Assembly: GCF_900129875.1 (NCBI RefSeq)
Contig: NZ_FQXC01000004.1
Coordinates: 496,001 to 560,000, forward strand
DNA: 64,000 bases
Direction: 5' to 3'
Source of the DNA: Marivita hallyeonensis
GTDB taxonomy: Bacteria > Pseudomonadota > Alphaproteobacteria > Rhodobacterales > Rhodobacteraceae
Positions 33,623 to 46,824 of this stretch are shown in pieces (the stretch's first letter is position 1; each line of letters begins with the position of its first letter). Under the pieces are notes generated by a model, which saw only the letters and a program-made list of their open reading frames with translations, was not told the DNA's origin and made no database searches. Both the position numbers and the translations under genes were made by a program.

Positions 33623-34789
33623 CTATCGCAACCGTCCTCGCAAGATATCGCCGATTTCGCCTTGCGGTCGTGTTCGCGTGAAGGCCAACAACATACCCAC
33701 AGCAATCCCGCCTGCAATCAAGGACGACCCGCCATAGCTAACGAAGGGAAGCGTCATGCCCTTGGCAGGCAGAAGGCGGACCGCCACACCCATGTTGATC
33801 ATCGCCTGAACGCCAAACATGCAGGCAAGCCCCGTCCCGGCCAGTCGGATAAACGGATCCCTCTCGCGCATCAGCCGCAGCAGGGACCGCACCACGATCG
33901 TGGCGTACAAAGCGATGATGATAAGAACCAGAACAAGCCCGTATTCCTCGGCAGCCACTGCAATAATGAAATCCGTGTGCGCGTCCGGCAGGGACCACTT
34001 CACCTGCCCCTCTCCCACGCCAACGCCGAAGAAGCCGCCTTCGCGGATGGCGTTGGTGGCGTAGCCCAGCTGCGTCGTGGGATCGACCTCGGGGCTCAGA
34101 AACCCATCGATGCGCCGCGCAAAATGTTCAGAGTTCTGGTACGCGACCGTGCCCGCAAAGATCACCAGACCTGCCATGCCAATGAGCAAGAGCATCGGTG
34201 CACCGGCCACGAAATACATCACGCCCCATCCGAAAAGCACCAGACAGGCCTGTCCAAAGTCCGGTTGCAGCGCAAGCATGAGGACGATGCTTACCGTCAA
34301 CGCGAAGGACAATGTTTTACCCGGCGGTCCGCCAAGCTCCTGACTGGCCGCAAGAAGCCACGCGGCGACGATGACGAAGGTCGGTTTCAGAAACTCGGAT
34401 GGCTGCAGGGACCCGAACCCGATGGAATACCAGCGCACCGCGCCTTTGCCGAAGTCAGTGCCAAAGAACGGCAACAGGGCCAAAGCAATAAAGGCGAAGA
34501 CAAATCCGATGACCGCAAAGCGCCGGACAACGATCGGGCTGAGCATCGACGTCACGATCAGGACGATCAGCGCCGTGCCTCCGAAAAACGCCTGACGCTG
34601 CACATAGTGGAACGGCGCAAAGCCATTGCGTTCCGCCAAGGGCGGCGACGCGGCCAGCCCAAGCAAAAGCCCGATGCCGAACAGAATGAAGATGCAGGAC
34701 AACGACCACTTGTCGACCGTGCGCCACCACTTTGGCAACACAGGTTCACCCGCGCGCGAGGGCACCGCGCCATAGACCATCTCTGTCAT
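33623..34789 (-). CDS. ftsW: Peptidoglycan glycosyltransferase FtsW
   Basis: SEDS-family septal glycosyltransferase with about ten membrane helices, 388 aa. SEDS signatures include GFGSLQPSEFLKPTFVIVAAW (core QPSEFLKP), the large periplasmic loop GVGEGQVKWSLPDAHTDF and EEYGLV, and the C-terminal ATGLAC-like MFGVQAMINMGVAVRLLPAKG followed by LPFVSYGGSSLI (each shorter than the full stretch). Normal length. Upstream on the other strand is the flavoprotein gene, so ftsW probably has its own promoter in the ~140-base gap; I see no clear one. Confidence 0.97.
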   Translation of the reverse strand: MTEMVYGAVPSRAGEPVLPKWWRTVDKWSLSCIFILFGIGLLLGLAASPPLAERNGFAPFHYVQRQAFFGGTALIVLIVTSMLSPIVVRRFAVIGFVFAFIALALLPFFGTDFGKGAVRWYSIGFGSLQPSEFLKPTFVIVAAWLLAASQELGGPPGKTLSFALTVSIVLMLALQPDFGQACLVLFGWGVMYFVAGAPMLLLIGMAGLVIFAGTVAYQNSEHFARRIDGFLSPEVDPTTQLGYATNAIREGGFFGVGVGEGQVKWSLPDAHTDFIIAVAAEEYGLVLVLIIIALYATIVVRSLLRLMRERDPFIRLAGTGLACMFGVQAMINMGVAVRLLPAKGMTLPFVSYGGSSLIAGGIAVGMLLAFTRTRPQGEIGDILRGRLR

Positions 34790-34931
34790 GGTTTCACCGC
34801 TAACTCTGCCTCAACCGCCCGGGTTCTCCCGGGTCTCTGAGCGCACCCTAACGCATATGATTCGCCCGATCCAGAGGAATGATTCGCACCTTGCCTCTTG
34901 CGACGCTCCGCGATCCATGATGGGTGCCGAT

Positions 34932-36113
34932 ATGGACGTGAACACCCTTATCCTTGGCGCTGGCGCCGCCGGCATGATGTGTGCGGCGCATGCCGGACCT
35001 TCGACACTGGTCATCGACCACGCCAAGGCTCCGGGTGAAAAGATCCGTATCTCGGGCGGCGGGCGTTGCAATTTCACCAACCTGCACACCGATCCGGCGC
35101 GCTTTCTTGGGCAGAACCCGCATTTCCACAAATCCGCGCTCAGCCGGTACACCCAGTGGGACTTTCTCGACCTCGTCGACCGCCACAAGATCGCGTGGCA
35201 TGAAAAGACCCTTGGCCAGCTCTTCTGCGACGACAAAGCCACGCAGATCATCGAAATGCTGCGCGCCGAACTCTTGCAGACAGGTGCAGAGCTTTGGTTG
35301 AAAACGACGCTCACCGATCTCGCCCACGATGGCGATCAGTACGAGGCGACGCTTGAACGGGACGGAACACGCCACGTTTTGCGGGCGCGCAACCTCGTGC
35401 TTGCGACCGGCGGGAAATCCATTCCCAAGATGGGCGCAACCGGGCTGGCGTACGACATCGCACGCAAGTTCGGCCACACGGTCACTGAAACGCGCCCTGC
35501 CCTCGTTCCACTGACCTTCAGTGACAAGCGCTTTGCCGACATCTCGGGCGTTTCGACCCCAGTCGCGGCCTGCGCCAATGGCACCACCTTCGAGGAAGCA
35601 ATGCTGTTCACCCATCGTGGTCTGAGCGGCCCGGCGGTGCTTCAGGTGTCCAGCTATTGGCACGAAGGCGACAGTATTTCCGTCAACCTTTTGCCGAACC
35701 ATGATCTTCAGTCCAGCTTACGCAGCGCGCGCACCATCCAAGGGAAGCGAAACGTCACCACGGCCTTGGCCGAAGTCCTGCCGGAACGGCTGGTATCGCA
35801 TCTCGCAACCCAGTTGCCTTTGCAAGGCAATGTCGGAGATCTGTCCGACAAACGGATCGACGAGATTACCGACGGGCTGCGGCAGTGGACACTGACACCG
35901 ACGGGCAGTGAAGGCTACCGTACCGCGGAAGTGACGCTTGGCGGTATCTCAACCGACCGGATCGACAGCAAGACCATGATGTCTCGCAAGGTTCCGGGGC
36001 TTTTCATGATCGGAGAGGCCGTGGACGTGACCGGCTGGCTGGGTGGCTACAACTTCCAATGGGCGTGGAGTTCCGGCGTCGCAGCCGGGCGTGCGATCAC
36101 GGCTCGGACTTGA
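34932..36113 (+). CDS. HI0933-family NAD(P)/FAD-dependent oxidoreductase
   Basis: Flavoprotein of 393 aa in the HI0933/BaiN-like family, whose physiological substrate is generally unknown. FAD-binding motifs are LILGAGAAGMMCAA at the N-terminus, GEKIRISGGGRCNFTN (~36), the central LVLATGGKSIPKMGATG and the C-terminal GEAVDVTGWLGGYNFQWAWSSG (core DVTGWLGGYN). The start at 34932 is chosen because the fold begins there; several in-frame ATG codons upstream (34857, 34917, 34920) are possible and none has a strong ribosome-binding site. It runs against the dcw cluster and directly abuts the following gene. Confidence 0.88.
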   Translation: MDVNTLILGAGAAGMMCAAHAGPSTLVIDHAKAPGEKIRISGGGRCNFTNLHTDPARFLGQNPHFHKSALSRYTQWDFLDLVDRHKIAWHEKTLGQLFCDDKATQIIEMLRAELLQTGAELWLKTTLTDLAHDGDQYEATLERDGTRHVLRARNLVLATGGKSIPKMGATGLAYDIARKFGHTVTETRPALVPLTFSDKRFADISGVSTPVAACANGTTFEEAMLFTHRGLSGPAVLQVSSYWHEGDSISVNLLPNHDLQSSLRSARTIQGKRNVTTALAEVLPERLVSHLATQLPLQGNVGDLSDKRIDEITDGLRQWTLTPTGSEGYRTAEVTLGGISTDRIDSKTMMSRKVPGLFMIGEAVDVTGWLGGYNFQWAWSSGVAAGRAITART

Positions 36114-36809
36114 ATGCGATTGAAAACTGTTTCACATCTGCCGCTCATGTCGGATGTTGCCATGTCTGTTCCCAAAGCACCTTTTCCGGTTCTGCGCGGC
36201 GTCTTGCGCGATCTGGCGAACCGCTTGGCGGAAGGGCAAAACGCGCCGCATGCGCAGGAACGCATCTGGATCAACCCTTCGCGCATCACTCGCATCTACA
36301 CCCGCAACCCGTTGGAAACGCCGGATTTCAAACGTCGGCACTCCGGCATGATCGTGGCTGGCGACTGGGATCAACGCACCGAACCCATTGACCAATCCTG
36401 GAAGATCGCCGCGTGTCTGGCGCATTTCCGGGACGGTGTGCCATGGGAGCAAACCGGCGTCTTCGAGAGGATGCAGGACGTGATCGCGCGTCGTGGCACA
36501 TTTGACGGATGCCGGACTCAACAGGATATTGAAGCGCGATACCGCCGGATCGATGCGCTTTATGCCAACATCAAAGCCAGCGGTTACCGGAACGAAACGG
36601 TGATCCGGCGCGCCGTGCCGCGCCTGCCCGAAGGGGTGTTTGTCCATATCGACCGTGATGGGACGCCCGTTTTTGGGGCCATTGGCAACCACCGCATGGG
36701 TATTGCACGCGCTCTGGGTCTGACCCGCATCCCGGCGCAACTTGGCGTCGTGCACCCCAAAGCACTGTCTCAAGGCGCGCTGCAGGGGTTTCGGGATCCA
36801 CGTCCATGA
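36114..36809 (+). CDS. ParB/sulfiredoxin-fold-like protein, tandem paralogue 1
   Basis: A 231-aa protein I recognise only by fold-like motifs. The C-terminal part, VFVHIDRDGTPVFG followed by GNHRMGIARALGLTRIPAQL and VVHP (~176-214), matches the pattern of ParB/sulfiredoxin-like domains (basic HR after a glycine turn). Similar proteins in archaea accompany glycan-biosynthesis genes. Shared with its neighbour are IWINP, RRHSGM (74-79), GDWD, GVPWE (~108), DGCR (131) and RYRRID. The start is uncertain: 36114 directly follows the previous stop; 36147 and 36162 are alternatives, and 36162 has GGATG upstream. Its end overlaps the next start by four bases. Function unknown. Confidence 0.75.
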   Translation: MRLKTVSHLPLMSDVAMSVPKAPFPVLRGVLRDLANRLAEGQNAPHAQERIWINPSRITRIYTRNPLETPDFKRRHSGMIVAGDWDQRTEPIDQSWKIAACLAHFRDGVPWEQTGVFERMQDVIARRGTFDGCRTQQDIEARYRRIDALYANIKASGYRNETVIRRAVPRLPEGVFVHIDRDGTPVFGAIGNHRMGIARALGLTRIPAQLGVVHPKALSQGALQGFRDPRP

Positions 36810-37462
36810 ACAAGATTCGAAAGACCATCAGTGCGGGCGTACCGCTCAAGGCTTTGCGTGATGTCACCAATCGGCTGCGCTTTGGCCCTGACGCCCCTCA
36901 AAGCGACGAGTTGATCTGGATCCGGCCGCGCGACGTTGAGAATTGGTACAAACCCGACCCTAAGAATGGCGCGCCACGGTTTCGCCGACGACATTCGGGC
37001 ATGGTGGCACCGGGCAATTGGGATCGCTCCACCTCGCCGTTCGGCAGCCACCTCAAACTCAACAGCATCAGGCAGCACTTTGAAAACGGTGTTCCGTGGG
37101 AAGAAACCAAGCTCTTTGGCTGGATGCTGCAACAGATCGAGGAGAAAGGCCGCATCGACGGCTGCCGCAACCGGGAAGAGCTGTTGGACCGCTATAGGCG
37201 GCTGGACCGGATCTACGACGAAACAAAGCGTACCGGTCGGTTGCGCCCGCACGGGTCAGTCAATGAGACGCGGCGCGAGCATGGGGGTATCCTCGTGCAT
37301 ATCAACCGCAACGGAACGCCCTTGCGCGACGGCGGCGGCATGCACCGTTTCGCCATCGCCTATAGTCTCGATCTTGAAAAGGTCCCGGCGCAACTGGGCG
37401 TGATCCACCCCGATGCGGTACGCTCGGGTGTATTAAAGAACCTGCGACAAGCGCCGGACTAA
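36806..37462 (+). CDS. ParB/sulfiredoxin-fold-like protein, tandem paralogue 2
   Basis: A 218-aa paralogue of the preceding protein, translationally coupled to it (ATGA overlap). It keeps every shared block: IWIRP, RRHSGM (61-66), NWD, GVPWEET (~95), DGCR (118-121), RYRRLDRIYDE and the C-terminal ILVHINRNGTP, GGGMHRFAIA (176-185) and VPAQLGVIHPDA. The glycine-His-Arg turn is the putative nucleotide- or phosphate-binding loop by analogy with ParB-like folds; this is inference. It converges with murD across an 11-base gap. No transmembrane or signal segment is seen, so it should be cytosolic. Confidence 0.78.
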   Translation: MNKIRKTISAGVPLKALRDVTNRLRFGPDAPQSDELIWIRPRDVENWYKPDPKNGAPRFRRRHSGMVAPGNWDRSTSPFGSHLKLNSIRQHFENGVPWEETKLFGWMLQQIEEKGRIDGCRNREELLDRYRRLDRIYDETKRTGRLRPHGSVNETRREHGGILVHINRNGTPLRDGGGMHRFAIAYSLDLEKVPAQLGVIHPDAVRSGVLKNLRQAPD

Positions 37463-37473
37463 GCCCACAAGCG

Positions 37474-38877
37474 TCAGTTCCCGAGCTGTGCCGTGACCCG
37501 CGCCACAAAGTCCTCTCCACGCTTTTCGAAGCTGTCATACTGATCGAAACTCGCCGCCGCCGGGGCCAGCAGGACAACGTCGCCCGCCTCCGCATCGGCA
37601 ACCGCCCGCGCGACGGCCACATCCATCGTCCCGCACGCCTCGGTTTCCAACCCGGTCAGTTGCACCGCAAACGCATCCGCCTCGCGCCCGATCACATAGG
37701 CCTTGCGCACATGGCCAAATCCGGCGCTTAAGGCCTCCAATCCGCCTTCCTTCTGCAAGCCGCCGCAAATCCAACGGATGTTCTTGAAGGCCAGCAGGGC
37801 TTTCAGCGCCGAATCCACGTTCGTTGCCTTGCTGTCGTTCACGTAGGTCACACCGTCTTTTTCGCCCACGATCTGGCTTCGATGCGGGAGACCGGCAAAT
37901 GTGCCCAAGGCAGCTTCGATGGCCCGTGGCGCAACGCCCAGCGCGCGTACGGCGGCGTAAGCCGCGCAAGCGTTCTGGTGGTTATGCGCCCCCGGAAGAC
38001 CCTTGATCGGACGCAGATCAATCGAGGCGACCTGCCGCCCCTTGCGCCACTCGGCCAGAAACCCCTTCCGGGCGAAGACGGACCAGCCCGGACCAGAGAG
38101 CTTTTGTCCGGACGAGATTTGGATCACGCGATCATCCGTTGCGCCTTCGGACAGCTGATTGGCGATGTACCGTCCCTCGTTTTCGTCGACGCCGATCACC
38201 GCGCGATCCGGGCCGCCTTCGGCAAACAGCCTGCGCTTCGCCGCGAAGTAGCCGCCAAGGCCAGCGTGGCGGTCAAGGTGGTCCGGCGACAGGTTGGTGA
38301 ACACCGCCACATCTGGCGTCAGCGCCCGCGCAAGGTCTGTCTGGTAGCTCGACAGTTCAAGCACGATCACATCCCCATCGCCTGGCGGATCAATGTCGAG
38401 CACGCCGCGCCCGATATTGCCCGCCAGCTGGCTACGGAACCCTGCCTCTTCAAGGATATGATGGATCAGGGCCGACGTGGTGGACTTGCCGTTCGATCCC
38501 GTCACCGCGATCACGCGCGGTGCGGTGTCGAACCTGTCCCAATCACCTGTGGCGAGCGACCGGAAGAACAGGCCGATGTCATTGTCGACCGGAACGCCTG
38601 CGTCCCAGGCCTTGGCGATCACGGGGTTGGGTGCGGGATAAAGATGCGGGATGCCGGGACTGATGATGAGCCGTGAAATGTGGTCAAACGCGCTGTCCTT
38701 GGACAGGTCGCGAATGTCAAAACCTTCGCCCTCGGCGGTTTCACGGGCCTTCGGGTTGTCATCCCAGCAAATCGCGGTTGCGCCACCTTCGCGCAACGCC
38801 CGTGCCGCTGACAGGCCAGAACGCCCCAAGCCCAGAACTGCTACTTGCTGCCCATCGAAACCCTGAACCGGGATCAT
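37474..38877 (-). CDS. murD: UDP-N-acetylmuramoylalanine--D-glutamate ligase
   Basis: Adds D-Glu to UDP-MurNAc-L-Ala; 467 aa. It has the N-terminal Rossmann-like [21 protein letters not shown] (core [11 protein letters not shown]), the ATP loop [15 protein letters not shown] (~124), the [12 protein letters not shown] central motif and the C-terminal [12 protein letters not shown]. Standard length and all Mur-ligase motifs are intact. It lies downstream of hisD on the same strand and is separated from ftsW by three opposing genes; mraY is not between them. Confidence 0.96.
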
Positions 38878-44455: not shown

Positions 44456-45598
44456 ATGCGCGCTGCAATCGCGACTGGCGAATATCATCTGGGCGGTGAG
44501 ACCTTCATCAACCGCCACATCGAACACTTGTTCGGTGGCAATACCGTTGTAGTCTGTGGGCGGTTTCATGGGGACAATCCCTACGGCAAATCCTATTTCG
44601 TCCGGCGCGATGGTTTATCCGGCAAGGATATTCTGATTGCACCCTGGTGGCTCCTGCGCAATCGCATCCGGCATGGGACATCGCGATTGCCATTTGGAGA
44701 GGCGAAAGTGGCGCTGACCAAGTTCGTGCGCGATGAGGGGGTGGAGGTCATCCTGGCCGAGTTCGGCACTCAGGCCTTGGCTCTTGCGCCGCTCGCGAAT
44801 GATCTTGGCATTCCGATCTTCACCTATTTCCGTGGCACCGACGCCTCCAAAGCTATTCGGACCGAGCGTATGCGGGCGGCGTATCGGAAGATGATGCCGC
44901 GTTTGGCGGGTGTGTTTTCGGTGTCGCAGTTTCTGCTCAACAACCTCAAAAGACACAACATCACGCACCCGAACAGCCATGTCATCCCTTCCGGCGTCGA
45001 TGTCCGCCGGTTTGCGCCTCAGGACAAGGTGCCGCTGAGCTTCATGGCGGTGGGGCGGTTCGTCGAAAAGAAGGCGCCGCTCATCACCCTGCGCGCGTTT
45101 GCCGACGCGACACAGGGTTTTCCGGCGGCTAAGCTCGACTTCATCGGCGACGGCCCTCTGCTCGAGGCGACACGTGCGTTGGCCGAAGAGATCGGCGTGA
45201 CTGGCAAGGTCCGGTTCCACGGTGCGCAGCCTCACGACACCGTGCGCGACCGGTTGATGAGCACGCAATTCTTCCTGCAGCATTCCGTCACCGCGCGGGA
45301 TGGCAACACCGAAGGCCTGCCCACCGCCATTCAGGAAGCCATGGCTTGCGGCTGTATCACCATATCAACCCGCCATGCGGGCATTCCCGAGGCCATCGAC
45401 GAAGGCGATACCGGCTTTCTCGTCGATGAACACGATGACGTTGGTTTCACCGCAGCGGTCTCCACCGCGATTGCGGTCGACGACCCGGCAGCCATGTCGC
45501 AGCGTGCGCGCAAGGTGGCGGAAGACCGGTTCGACAATCATACCCTGCTGAAGGTGCTCGAACGCCGGATTCAGGACACGCTCGCCGACCGCGACTGA
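44456..45598 (+). CDS. Glycosyltransferase family 4
   Basis: GT-B retaining glycosyltransferase of 380 aa. The donor domain has VIPSGVDVRRFAP (~165), FMAVGRFVEKKAPLITLRAF (core GRFVEKKAP), KLDFIGDGPLLE and the nucleotide-sugar contact EGLPTAIQEAMACGC (E-x7-E). It stands immediately upstream of a Kdo transferase gene with only 11 bases between them, so the product probably builds lipopolysaccharide or a related surface glycan. The sugar is not predictable. Start at 44456; no strong ribosome-binding site is visible. Confidence 0.9.
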   Translation: MRAAIATGEYHLGGETFINRHIEHLFGGNTVVVCGRFHGDNPYGKSYFVRRDGLSGKDILIAPWWLLRNRIRHGTSRLPFGEAKVALTKFVRDEGVEVILAEFGTQALALAPLANDLGIPIFTYFRGTDASKAIRTERMRAAYRKMMPRLAGVFSVSQFLLNNLKRHNITHPNSHVIPSGVDVRRFAPQDKVPLSFMAVGRFVEKKAPLITLRAFADATQGFPAAKLDFIGDGPLLEATRALAEEIGVTGKVRFHGAQPHDTVRDRLMSTQFFLQHSVTARDGNTEGLPTAIQEAMACGCITISTRHAGIPEAIDEGDTGFLVDEHDDVGFTAAVSTAIAVDDPAAMSQRARKVAEDRFDNHTLLKVLERRIQDTLADRD

Positions 45599-45609: not shown

Positions 45610-46824
45610 GTGCTGCTGTACCATATCCTTTTGCGTGTGCTGGCCGCCAAAGAGCTCGCGGCGCGCGCGGCGAAAGCGGACTGGTCGGGGATCAAAGCCA
45701 GGCTTGGCCGGGTAGACGCGGCACCGGAGGGCGCCACGATTTGGCTTCACGCCGCGTCGAACGGTGAAATCGCGTCTGCGAAGCCGGTGATCCGCCACCT
45801 TCTGGACCAGGGGCACCGGCTCCTTGTCACCCTGAACACCGATACCGGCGTCGCGTTGGCGAAAAGCTGGGCGCTCCCGAACCTTTTTGCACAGTTGGCG
45901 CCACTCGATCTGCCCGGGCCAACAAGACGCATCTATCGCGATTGGGGTATCACCGCCCACATCACCCTGGAATCCGACCTCTGGCCGCATCGCATTCTGG
46001 CCTGCCCCGGGCCGGTCATCGTCCTCGGCGGACGGTTGACCGAGCGGTCGGCAAAAGGTTGGCGTCGGTTCCCCAAGCTCGTGGGCCGCGTCATGAAAAA
46101 GATCACCTTCCTGTCCGCCCAGGACACAGGGTCGATGAGGCGTTTTGAAGAGTTCGGGCTTTCGGATGCTGCCAAAGGTCCGGTGTTCGATCTGAAAGCG
46201 CTTTACGAGCCGCCAGACGCTCCGATGAATGCCACCTTGAAAAGCGCATTTGACCGCGACACCACGTGGTTGGCCGCATCCACCCACGAAGGGGACGAGG
46301 ACATTGTTCTAGAGGCCCACAAGCGTTTGCTGAACGTCCACCCGACCGCGCGCCTGATCCTTGCGCCACGCCATCCCAGACGCGCGGACGTGATCATCAA
46401 CCTGATCCGGCAGCACGGCCTGAGCTTTGCCCAGCGCTCGAAGGGCGAAAACCCGGAGACCGCGCAAGTGTATCTCGCCGATACGATGGGCGACATGCAC
46501 CTCTGGTACGCGCTGGCCGGGATTACCCTTGTCGCAGGGTCCTTTTCAGACCGTGGCGGGCACACACCTTATGAACCGGCGCATTTTCGGTCAGCCATCC
46601 TTCACGGCACGGATACGGCGAATTTCGAAGCCGCTTACGAGAAACTGGCACGGTTGAACGGTGCGATTTGCGTAGACGATGCGGCATCGCTTGCGGACGC
46701 CCTCGAGTCCCTGATGACGTCCAAAACCCATACCAGACTGGGTGCTGCGGCGCATGATGCGCTCTTGCAAGACGTCAAAATTGACACATTGATGCAGCAC
46801 GTGATTGCCGCGCTGAACGCTTGA
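45610..46824 (+). CDS. waaA: 3-deoxy-D-manno-octulosonic acid transferase
   Basis: Adds Kdo to the lipid A precursor at the inner membrane; 404 aa from a GTG start. Recognised from WLHAASNGEIASAKPVI, LTLESDLWPH-like ITLESDLWPHRI, GGRLTERSAKGW, the ASTHEGDEDIVLEAH donor region, ILAPRHPRR, LADTMGDMHLWYALA and GSFSDRGGHTPYEPAHF, which carry the GT30 signature with small substitutions. The N-terminal membrane helix is short. The number of Kdo residues it adds cannot be judged. It is linked to lpxC only by pathway, about 23 kb away. Confidence 0.94.
   Translation: MLLYHILLRVLAAKELAARAAKADWSGIKARLGRVDAAPEGATIWLHAASNGEIASAKPVIRHLLDQGHRLLVTLNTDTGVALAKSWALPNLFAQLAPLDLPGPTRRIYRDWGITAHITLESDLWPHRILACPGPVIVLGGRLTERSAKGWRRFPKLVGRVMKKITFLSAQDTGSMRRFEEFGLSDAAKGPVFDLKALYEPPDAPMNATLKSAFDRDTTWLAASTHEGDEDIVLEAHKRLLNVHPTARLILAPRHPRRADVIINLIRQHGLSFAQRSKGENPETAQVYLADTMGDMHLWYALAGITLVAGSFSDRGGHTPYEPAHFRSAILHGTDTANFEAAYEKLARLNGAICVDDAASLADALESLMTSKTHTRLGAAAHDALLQDVKIDTLMQHVIAALNA

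Follow-up and report, generated by a model that had tools for sequence, protein, structure and literature searches.

What could two small, overlapping genes contribute to the division and cell wall (dcw) gene cluster, when they point against the genes of that cluster and fit no described protein family? The question is raised by genes A and B of Marivita hallyeonensis, whose genus NCBI places in the Roseobacteraceae; both lie in a 64,000-nucleotide stretch of contig NZ_FQXC01000004.1 (the window). Judging from structure models, the two proteins appear to have a ParB/sulfiredoxin (Srx) core with an insertion of about 75 residues. We propose, at a probability of roughly 0.4, that their family represents a nucleotide-dependent enzyme of cell-surface glycan synthesis built on the ParB/Srx fold, and not a DNA clamp. 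The features of the two genes are as follows:

36147..36809, + strand: gene A (220 aa), predicted ParB/Srx-like core with an inserted segment; the open frame from the ATG at 36114 has 231 aa
36806..37462, + strand: gene B (218 aa), paralogue of A with the same predicted fold
36806..36809, + strand: ATGA overlap of the stop of A and the start of B, probably translationally coupled
36684..36695, + strand: GNHR of gene A, corresponding to the GxxR P motif (Box II) of the fold
37337..37348, + strand: GMHR of gene B, GxxR P motif, residues 178-181
36950..37168, + strand: approximate inserted segment of gene B, residues 49-121 (limits probable), between the first core strand and the long helix, carrying RRHSGM, GxWD and PWExT

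Predicted fold

The models were confident for both A (231-aa frame; predicted local distance difference test score, pLDDT, 90.9; predicted template modelling score, pTM, 0.83; model m017957fb6bba) and B (pLDDT 93.7, pTM 0.88; model me6502fc094c3). The B model contains the elements E36-39, H123-143, E163-166, E172-174, H179-187 and E193-200, which recur in the same order in the A model; in both predictions the core runs strand-helix-strand-strand-helix-strand in the ParB order and was aligned to Srx and ParB chains. Foldseek against the PDB placed only Srx, ParB, Noc, KorB or PadC structures at places 1-29 for A, and the same proteins or 1vk1 at places 1-28 for B. Srx structures were the top fold matches of both proteins, and SbnI and SerK were among the matches of both in a second fold comparison. 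Taken singly, the match scores against solved structures are weak, and residues 34-207 of the B model cover only 85 aligned residues of Arabidopsis sulfiredoxin. In profile comparisons with hhalign, family profile A1 scored 34.7 against 12 ParB_N sequences in the expected register, and profile A3, in which near-duplicate genus sequences had been thinned, scored 32.4; 60 column-shuffled controls against A1 reached at most 15.9 and the reversed control 12.0. The 12 sequences were those left of 18 ParB_N stretches after exclusion of near-copies and one short stretch. The confident models, the fold searches and the profile comparison against its shuffled controls agree and together support the ParB/Srx core suggested by the original prediction.

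Sequence motifs and family membership

A and B are 41% identical over 199 aa (BLASTP, E 3e-55), far past chance, and share all eight motif blocks that had been noticed in them: WIxP (WINP/WIRP), RRHSGM, GxWD, GVPWE, DGCR, RYRRxD, G-x-HR-x3-A and PAQLGVxHP. We counted conservation in 78 aligned sequences, a set of distinct but not independent strings, since it contains many close relatives and, for some distant members, a partial beside a full version. In B numbering, G170, G178 and R181 are each kept in 77, H201 and A185 in 75, H180 in 74 (with Asn in three), W72 in 73, D73 in 72, T101 in 71 and R168 in 70. The P motif (Box II) is retained in 77 of the 78, the exception (L079) being a truncated fragment, i.e. 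in every sequence that reaches the motif. W98, R129 and D134 are kept in only 10, 9 and 7, respectively, of 24 distant members, and because they thin out there they belong to the closer relatives. Two weak or partial matches (L054, L055) were excluded from the alignments and from the tree described below.

Box III of ParB reads ENxxR; a stretch of this kind (EN-[ILV]-x-R after the P motif) was found in none of the 78 sequences. The catalytic cysteine of Srx stands directly before a His-Arg pair, a position occupied by Asn in A, by Met in B and by Cys in one of 77 sequences (L095). Searches of Pfam, NCBIfam, PHROGs and PADLOC gave no family that fits A or B, in keeping with the view that they are undescribed, and Pfam and NCBIfam offered none that describes the ten distant members tested. 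PF02195 (ParB_N) matched neither A nor B, nor any of 30 aligned and ten distant members, and Pfam gave no match to a helix-turn-helix (HTH) or dimer domain in A or B. Sequence searches of the PDB returned nothing significant; Spo0J 6sdk matched the expected region at E 0.76. Judging by titles and the openings of abstracts, we recognised no paper on the family in the open-licence library searched; annotation at the superfamily level (e.g., InterPro) may exist. A known anti-phage defence protein was considered and rejected, since neither A nor B matched the PADLOC defence models at E values up to 1.

Surface-glycan context outside the own family

Outside the own family, we fetched 12 loci from 14 matching genomes (G457 and G630 were left out) and took the flanking called genes, three per side at most, for a total of 66 proteins. 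These included nine glycosyltransferases (GT) of group 1, five of group 2, two lipid A acyltransferases, two O-antigen ligases and two sulfotransferases. For 72 control genes (12 regions, 10 of the same genomes) no GT family appeared among the 25 of 116 families listed, so that a GT matched by a single control gene could lie among the others. A homologous GT4 (35-89% pairwise identity, full length) is linked to the gene in six of the 12 bacterial loci, adjacent to it in five (L102, L103, L106, L107, L108) and about 2.7 kb off, with three genes between, in the sixth (L109); these come from two families and four genera and are not six independent cases. In a further locus, L104, a 485-aa protein has a methyltransferase behind the family domain (TehB above its cut-off, Methyltransf_11 at its own), with a GT4 three genes away. 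This class I methyltransferase fusion (L104, 8820-10277) lies in a glycan locus together with sulfotransferase-like and deacetylase-like genes, both named by eye.

The archaeal search covered a plasmid collection, in which 16 haloarchaeal records have a relative. Ten of the 13 records opened contain glycan-like clusters, which bears out the placing, in the original prediction, of archaeal proteins of the same layout in glycan loci. All eight Halobaculum records have an NAD-dependent epimerase gene nearby, and six of them (L028, L030, L122, L171, L172, L173) have a Gfo/Idh/MocA oxidoreductase immediately upstream; L123 and L174 lack such an annotation at that place. Six records also show a flippase; the two that do not, L172 and L173, are short stretches for which we infer the cluster from synteny. 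The Halobellus and Natronorubrum records are glycan loci as well; those of Natrononativus, Natrarchaeobaculum and Halorubrum are not. In the Natrarchaeobaculum record (L031, 10660-13467), an IS4 transposase lies near the relative, between two pieces annotated as SelO-like adenylyltransferase.

Gene places within the own family

Gene context in the own family was studied at 24 loci from other genomes. Neighbours without a Pfam test were judged by eye, and genes were called with a simple codon-score script that produced clear shadow frames in L034, L037, L042, L046, L053 and L054. The gene lies beside murD, convergent with it, in eight of the 24 (L032, L034, L036, L038-L041, L051), in the rplP-rpmC gap of the S10 ribosomal operon in five (L044, L046-L049), and beside a glycosyltransferase in three: L042 and L043 adjoin a GT8-like and a sulfotransferase-like protein, L043 also a GT4, and L053 adjoins a GT4. 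L050 adjoins a Gfo/Idh/MocA oxidoreductase and L035 lies by tRNA-Tyr. At the remaining six (L033, L037, L045, L052, L054, L055) no glycan neighbour was recognised, with unreliable gene calls in L037 and L054.

Two of these places deserve separate mention. In two bacterial families (L035, 5814-7990; L105, 8475-10735), the gene has tRNA-Tyr and an RNA methyltransferase gene judged by eye to be rlmB-like as its neighbours, as if the tRNA-Tyr gene were an integration point there. The rplP-rpmC gap carries a PF13759 2-oxoglutarate (2OG)-Fe(II) oxygenase on either strand (L044, L046-L049, L175, L177-L184, and in the own genome, G000 C20), and because this oxygenase occurs with or without the ParB-fold gene, the gap resembles a cargo site within an S10 operon that is conserved otherwise.

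Distribution and phylogeny

A and B are the sole copies in their own genome. All 17 genomes searched in the genus (own included) have the gene, 15 of them with two matches. The other two keep A and seem to have lost or broken B: G681 has one match, A, with B missing between A and murD (L121), and G690 carries A together with a B split in two over different contigs (L079), which may be an assembly effect or an interruption. Matches were found in 21 of 295 genomes of the own family (own included), in eight of 385 drawn from the class (own-family genomes among them, with other families reached) and in 11 of 398 drawn from the phylum, with members elsewhere in the phylum; the three draws overlap. 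A contig scan with a single-protein query gave one relative, and we put little weight on it for distribution, preferring the genome-search tallies. A phage origin is disfavoured, since a phage collection searched with B as query gave no match and none of 24 pattern matches in a scan of viral contigs was a relative.

The conserved pairing of the two genes holds within the genus and ends there: none of the 24 loci from other own-family genomes is tandem, and all carry a single gene. In a tree of 49 rows, with near-duplicate genus sequences thinned, many weakly supported deep branches and five long-branch rows, A and its genus copies form one clade (support 100/99) and the genus B copies another (100/100). 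B is joined with 20 other rows (eight genus B, five S10, three dcw, two glycan-locus, two other) by a branch supported at 96/87 that excludes A. Because this branch groups B with copies from other loci without A, a recent tandem duplication is rejected; by this tree A and B are not sister copies, and the pair would go back to an older duplication or to two acquisitions at one place.

The locus and its neighbours

The genes around A and B in the window are:

34788..36113, + strand: HI0933-like flavoprotein gene, co-directional with A and not part of the system (Pfam HI0933_like, 1.9e-83)
37474..38877, - strand: murD, convergent with gene B (Mur_ligase_M 3.8e-26; MurD-like_N 2.2e-05, under its cut-off)
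33623..34789, - strand: ftsW (FTSW_RODA_SPOVE 7.5e-70)

A and B are thus opposed to ftsW and murD, as described before. Their placement between these two genes was correct on the murD side; the immediate left neighbour is the flavoprotein gene, not ftsW. The two frames of 231 and 218 aa (36114-36809 and 36806-37462) do overlap by four bases. The true start of A is more likely to be 36147 than 36114, because, in the nine loci of the genus that were inspected (the window's among them), an ATG 30-48 nt past the flavoprotein stop fits the alignment, and because the 36114 ATG directly abuts the stop codon of the flavoprotein gene. A scripted check found both genes by motif in 13 of 18 loci (its pattern missed A in L003, L065 and L076 and gave no B for L079 and L080), and B starts 4 nt inside the end of A in 11 of the 13 (10 ATG, one GTG), in line with the proposed translational coupling and its conservation in the genus; the overlap is longer in L073, and for L075 the script listed no start though the letters read ATGA. 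Within the genus, A and B have ratios of median pN to median pS (nonsynonymous and synonymous differences) of 0.355 and 0.268, compared with 0.200 for the flavoprotein gene, 0.158 for murD and 0.089 for ftsW, suggesting that both are constrained yet evolve faster than their neighbours. A promoter and terminator scan gave numbers close to the shuffled means.

The flavoprotein gene is co-directional with A at a gap of 30-48 nt in the nine genus loci examined, and from this gene order their co-transcription is plausible. The special link between the two that had been suspected is not supported: the flavoprotein is present in 12 of 12 own-family genomes without an A/B-type gene, and no flavoprotein was detected next to the gene beside murD in L032, L034 and L051 (it is on the other side of the gene in five of the eight murD-side loci), so that an obligate partnership is rejected. 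In the gene-free genomes, whose flanks are short, it stands next to ftsW in four and is directly followed by murD in one, L151, which reads ftsW-flavoprotein-murD with nothing between. At its listed start, the flavoprotein gene overlaps the beginning of ftsW, on the opposite strand, by two bases, and since its Pfam matches begin only near residue 51, the true start probably lies about 140 nt downstream. About 7 kb from gene B, the window also holds lipopolysaccharide-core genes, namely a GT4-type glycosyltransferase (44456-45598), which clusters with the GT4 adjoining the relative in L053, and then a Kdo-transferase-type gene (45610-46824; PF04413); hisD-like and murA-like genes (named by eye) and tRNA-Thr lie in between.

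Proposed function and alternatives

Established members of the fold without the DNA-clamp parts (Srx, SerK, SbnI) are described, in passages of PMC12704722 and PMC5120207, as enzymes using ATP or ADP, a pattern qualified by a SerK-like protein that bound CTP in the fold survey (PMC12704722). Taken with this pattern, the missing Box III, the retained Box II and an insertion with conserved residues argue for an envelope-glycan enzyme dependent on nucleoside triphosphate (NTP), and the lack of both a Box III-like stretch and a PF02195 match argues against a clamp. The core would bind a nucleoside di- or triphosphate through the GxHR motif, whose Box II arginine other ParB-fold proteins require in order to bind NTP (PMC12704722). 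A second substrate would probably be bound in a pocket made by the large insertion, which has GxWD and W-x2-T. The reaction of this presumably cytosolic protein would be a phosphoryl transfer, or a phosphoryl activation, in envelope-glycan synthesis and perhaps kinase-like, working in a manner comparable to that of SerK and SbnI, free serine kinases of the same fold that are small-molecule phosphotransferases. In the genus, two diverged versions, each with its own motif, would be co-translated beside peptidoglycan genes and could act on two substrates or make up a single two-subunit enzyme, such as the heterodimer of the original prediction. We regard as doubtful the further-reaching idea of an unrecognised class of ParB-fold glycan kinases in Proteobacteria and haloarchaea, NTP-dependent and modifying a sugar or a lipid-linked envelope-glycan intermediate, with a coupled two-subunit version in the dcw cluster of the marine genus Marivita.

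In a different role, the ParB-like core would be an NTP switch or accessory subunit that regulates a glycosyltransferase or other envelope enzyme without catalysis of its own. ParB itself is such a switch, many members of the fold bind nucleotides without known chemistry (as stated in parts of PMC12704722), and both the conserved link to one GT4 family and the methyltransferase fusion would suit a regulatory domain. However, D73, T101, R168, H180, R181 and H201 are kept across bacteria and archaea in the manner of an active site, and no GT is adjacent in the dcw and S10 settings; we consider a purely regulatory role conceivable, if on the unlikely side. More improbable is a glycan-pathway protein whose pocket binds a phosphate-bearing sugar or a nucleotide sugar and not an NTP cofactor. 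The conserved insertion residues and P motif would fit it, as would the Gfo/Idh/MocA oxidoreductases and sugar epimerases linked in Halobaculum and the Gfo/Idh/MocA gene beside L050, but Box II is fully kept, as in the NTP-binding members of the fold.

A ParB-type DNA-binding clamp, i.e. a partition protein or ParB-like nuclease that lies in the dcw cluster by chance, would share fold and Box II, and the archaeal members do sit on plasmids (the sole archaeal collection searched). The sequences, however, lack the PF02195 match and the Box III-like stretch, and a PF02195 search of the own genome gave five ParB_N matches, all at other loci on other contigs, which leaves a clamp very unlikely. A sulfiredoxin-like repair enzyme paired with the flavoprotein is scarcely credible: Srx structures are the top fold matches and the flavoprotein lies upstream and co-directional in the genus loci examined, but the cysteine is replaced, and flavoprotein and gene each occur without the other.

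Comparison with known systems

The SerK/SbnI kinases (PDB 5x0b series, 5ujd, 6nr6) have the ParB/Srx fold, but the A/B family differs from them by the roughly 75 residues inserted in the core and by its glycan context, and we noticed no link to a serine or cysteine metabolism gene. The catalytic glutamate of SerK we take to be E30, from the PDB titles of E30A and E30Q mutants. Unlike sulfiredoxin (PDB 3cyi, 6ky4), A and B have the inserted segment and another residue in place of the catalytic cysteine, with no link to a peroxiredoxin noticed. The CTPase clamps ParB, Noc and KorB (PF02195) resemble the family in core fold, GxxR Box II and profile similarity, but A and B lack the PF02195 score, the Box III-like stretch and a Pfam match to an HTH or dimer domain. 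The relative in L104 is a fusion of the kind described, in part of PMC12704722, between the ParB fold and S-adenosylmethionine (SAM)-dependent methyltransferases; it differs in that it lies in a glycan locus and that the PF02195-based query of that survey misses the members tested here.

Proteins with the ParB-type fold that play no part in chromosome segregation have recently been shown to bind ATP, CTP or GTP (a 2025 survey starting from PF02195, as presented in parts of PMC12704722). The members tested here escape PF02195, have a segment inserted into the core and are associated with surface-glycan genes in both bacteria and archaea. If the family is enzymatic, it would extend both the chemistry of glycan assembly and the functions of the ParB fold, and would offer a small, well-conserved target for direct tests (the Box II arginine, GxWD).
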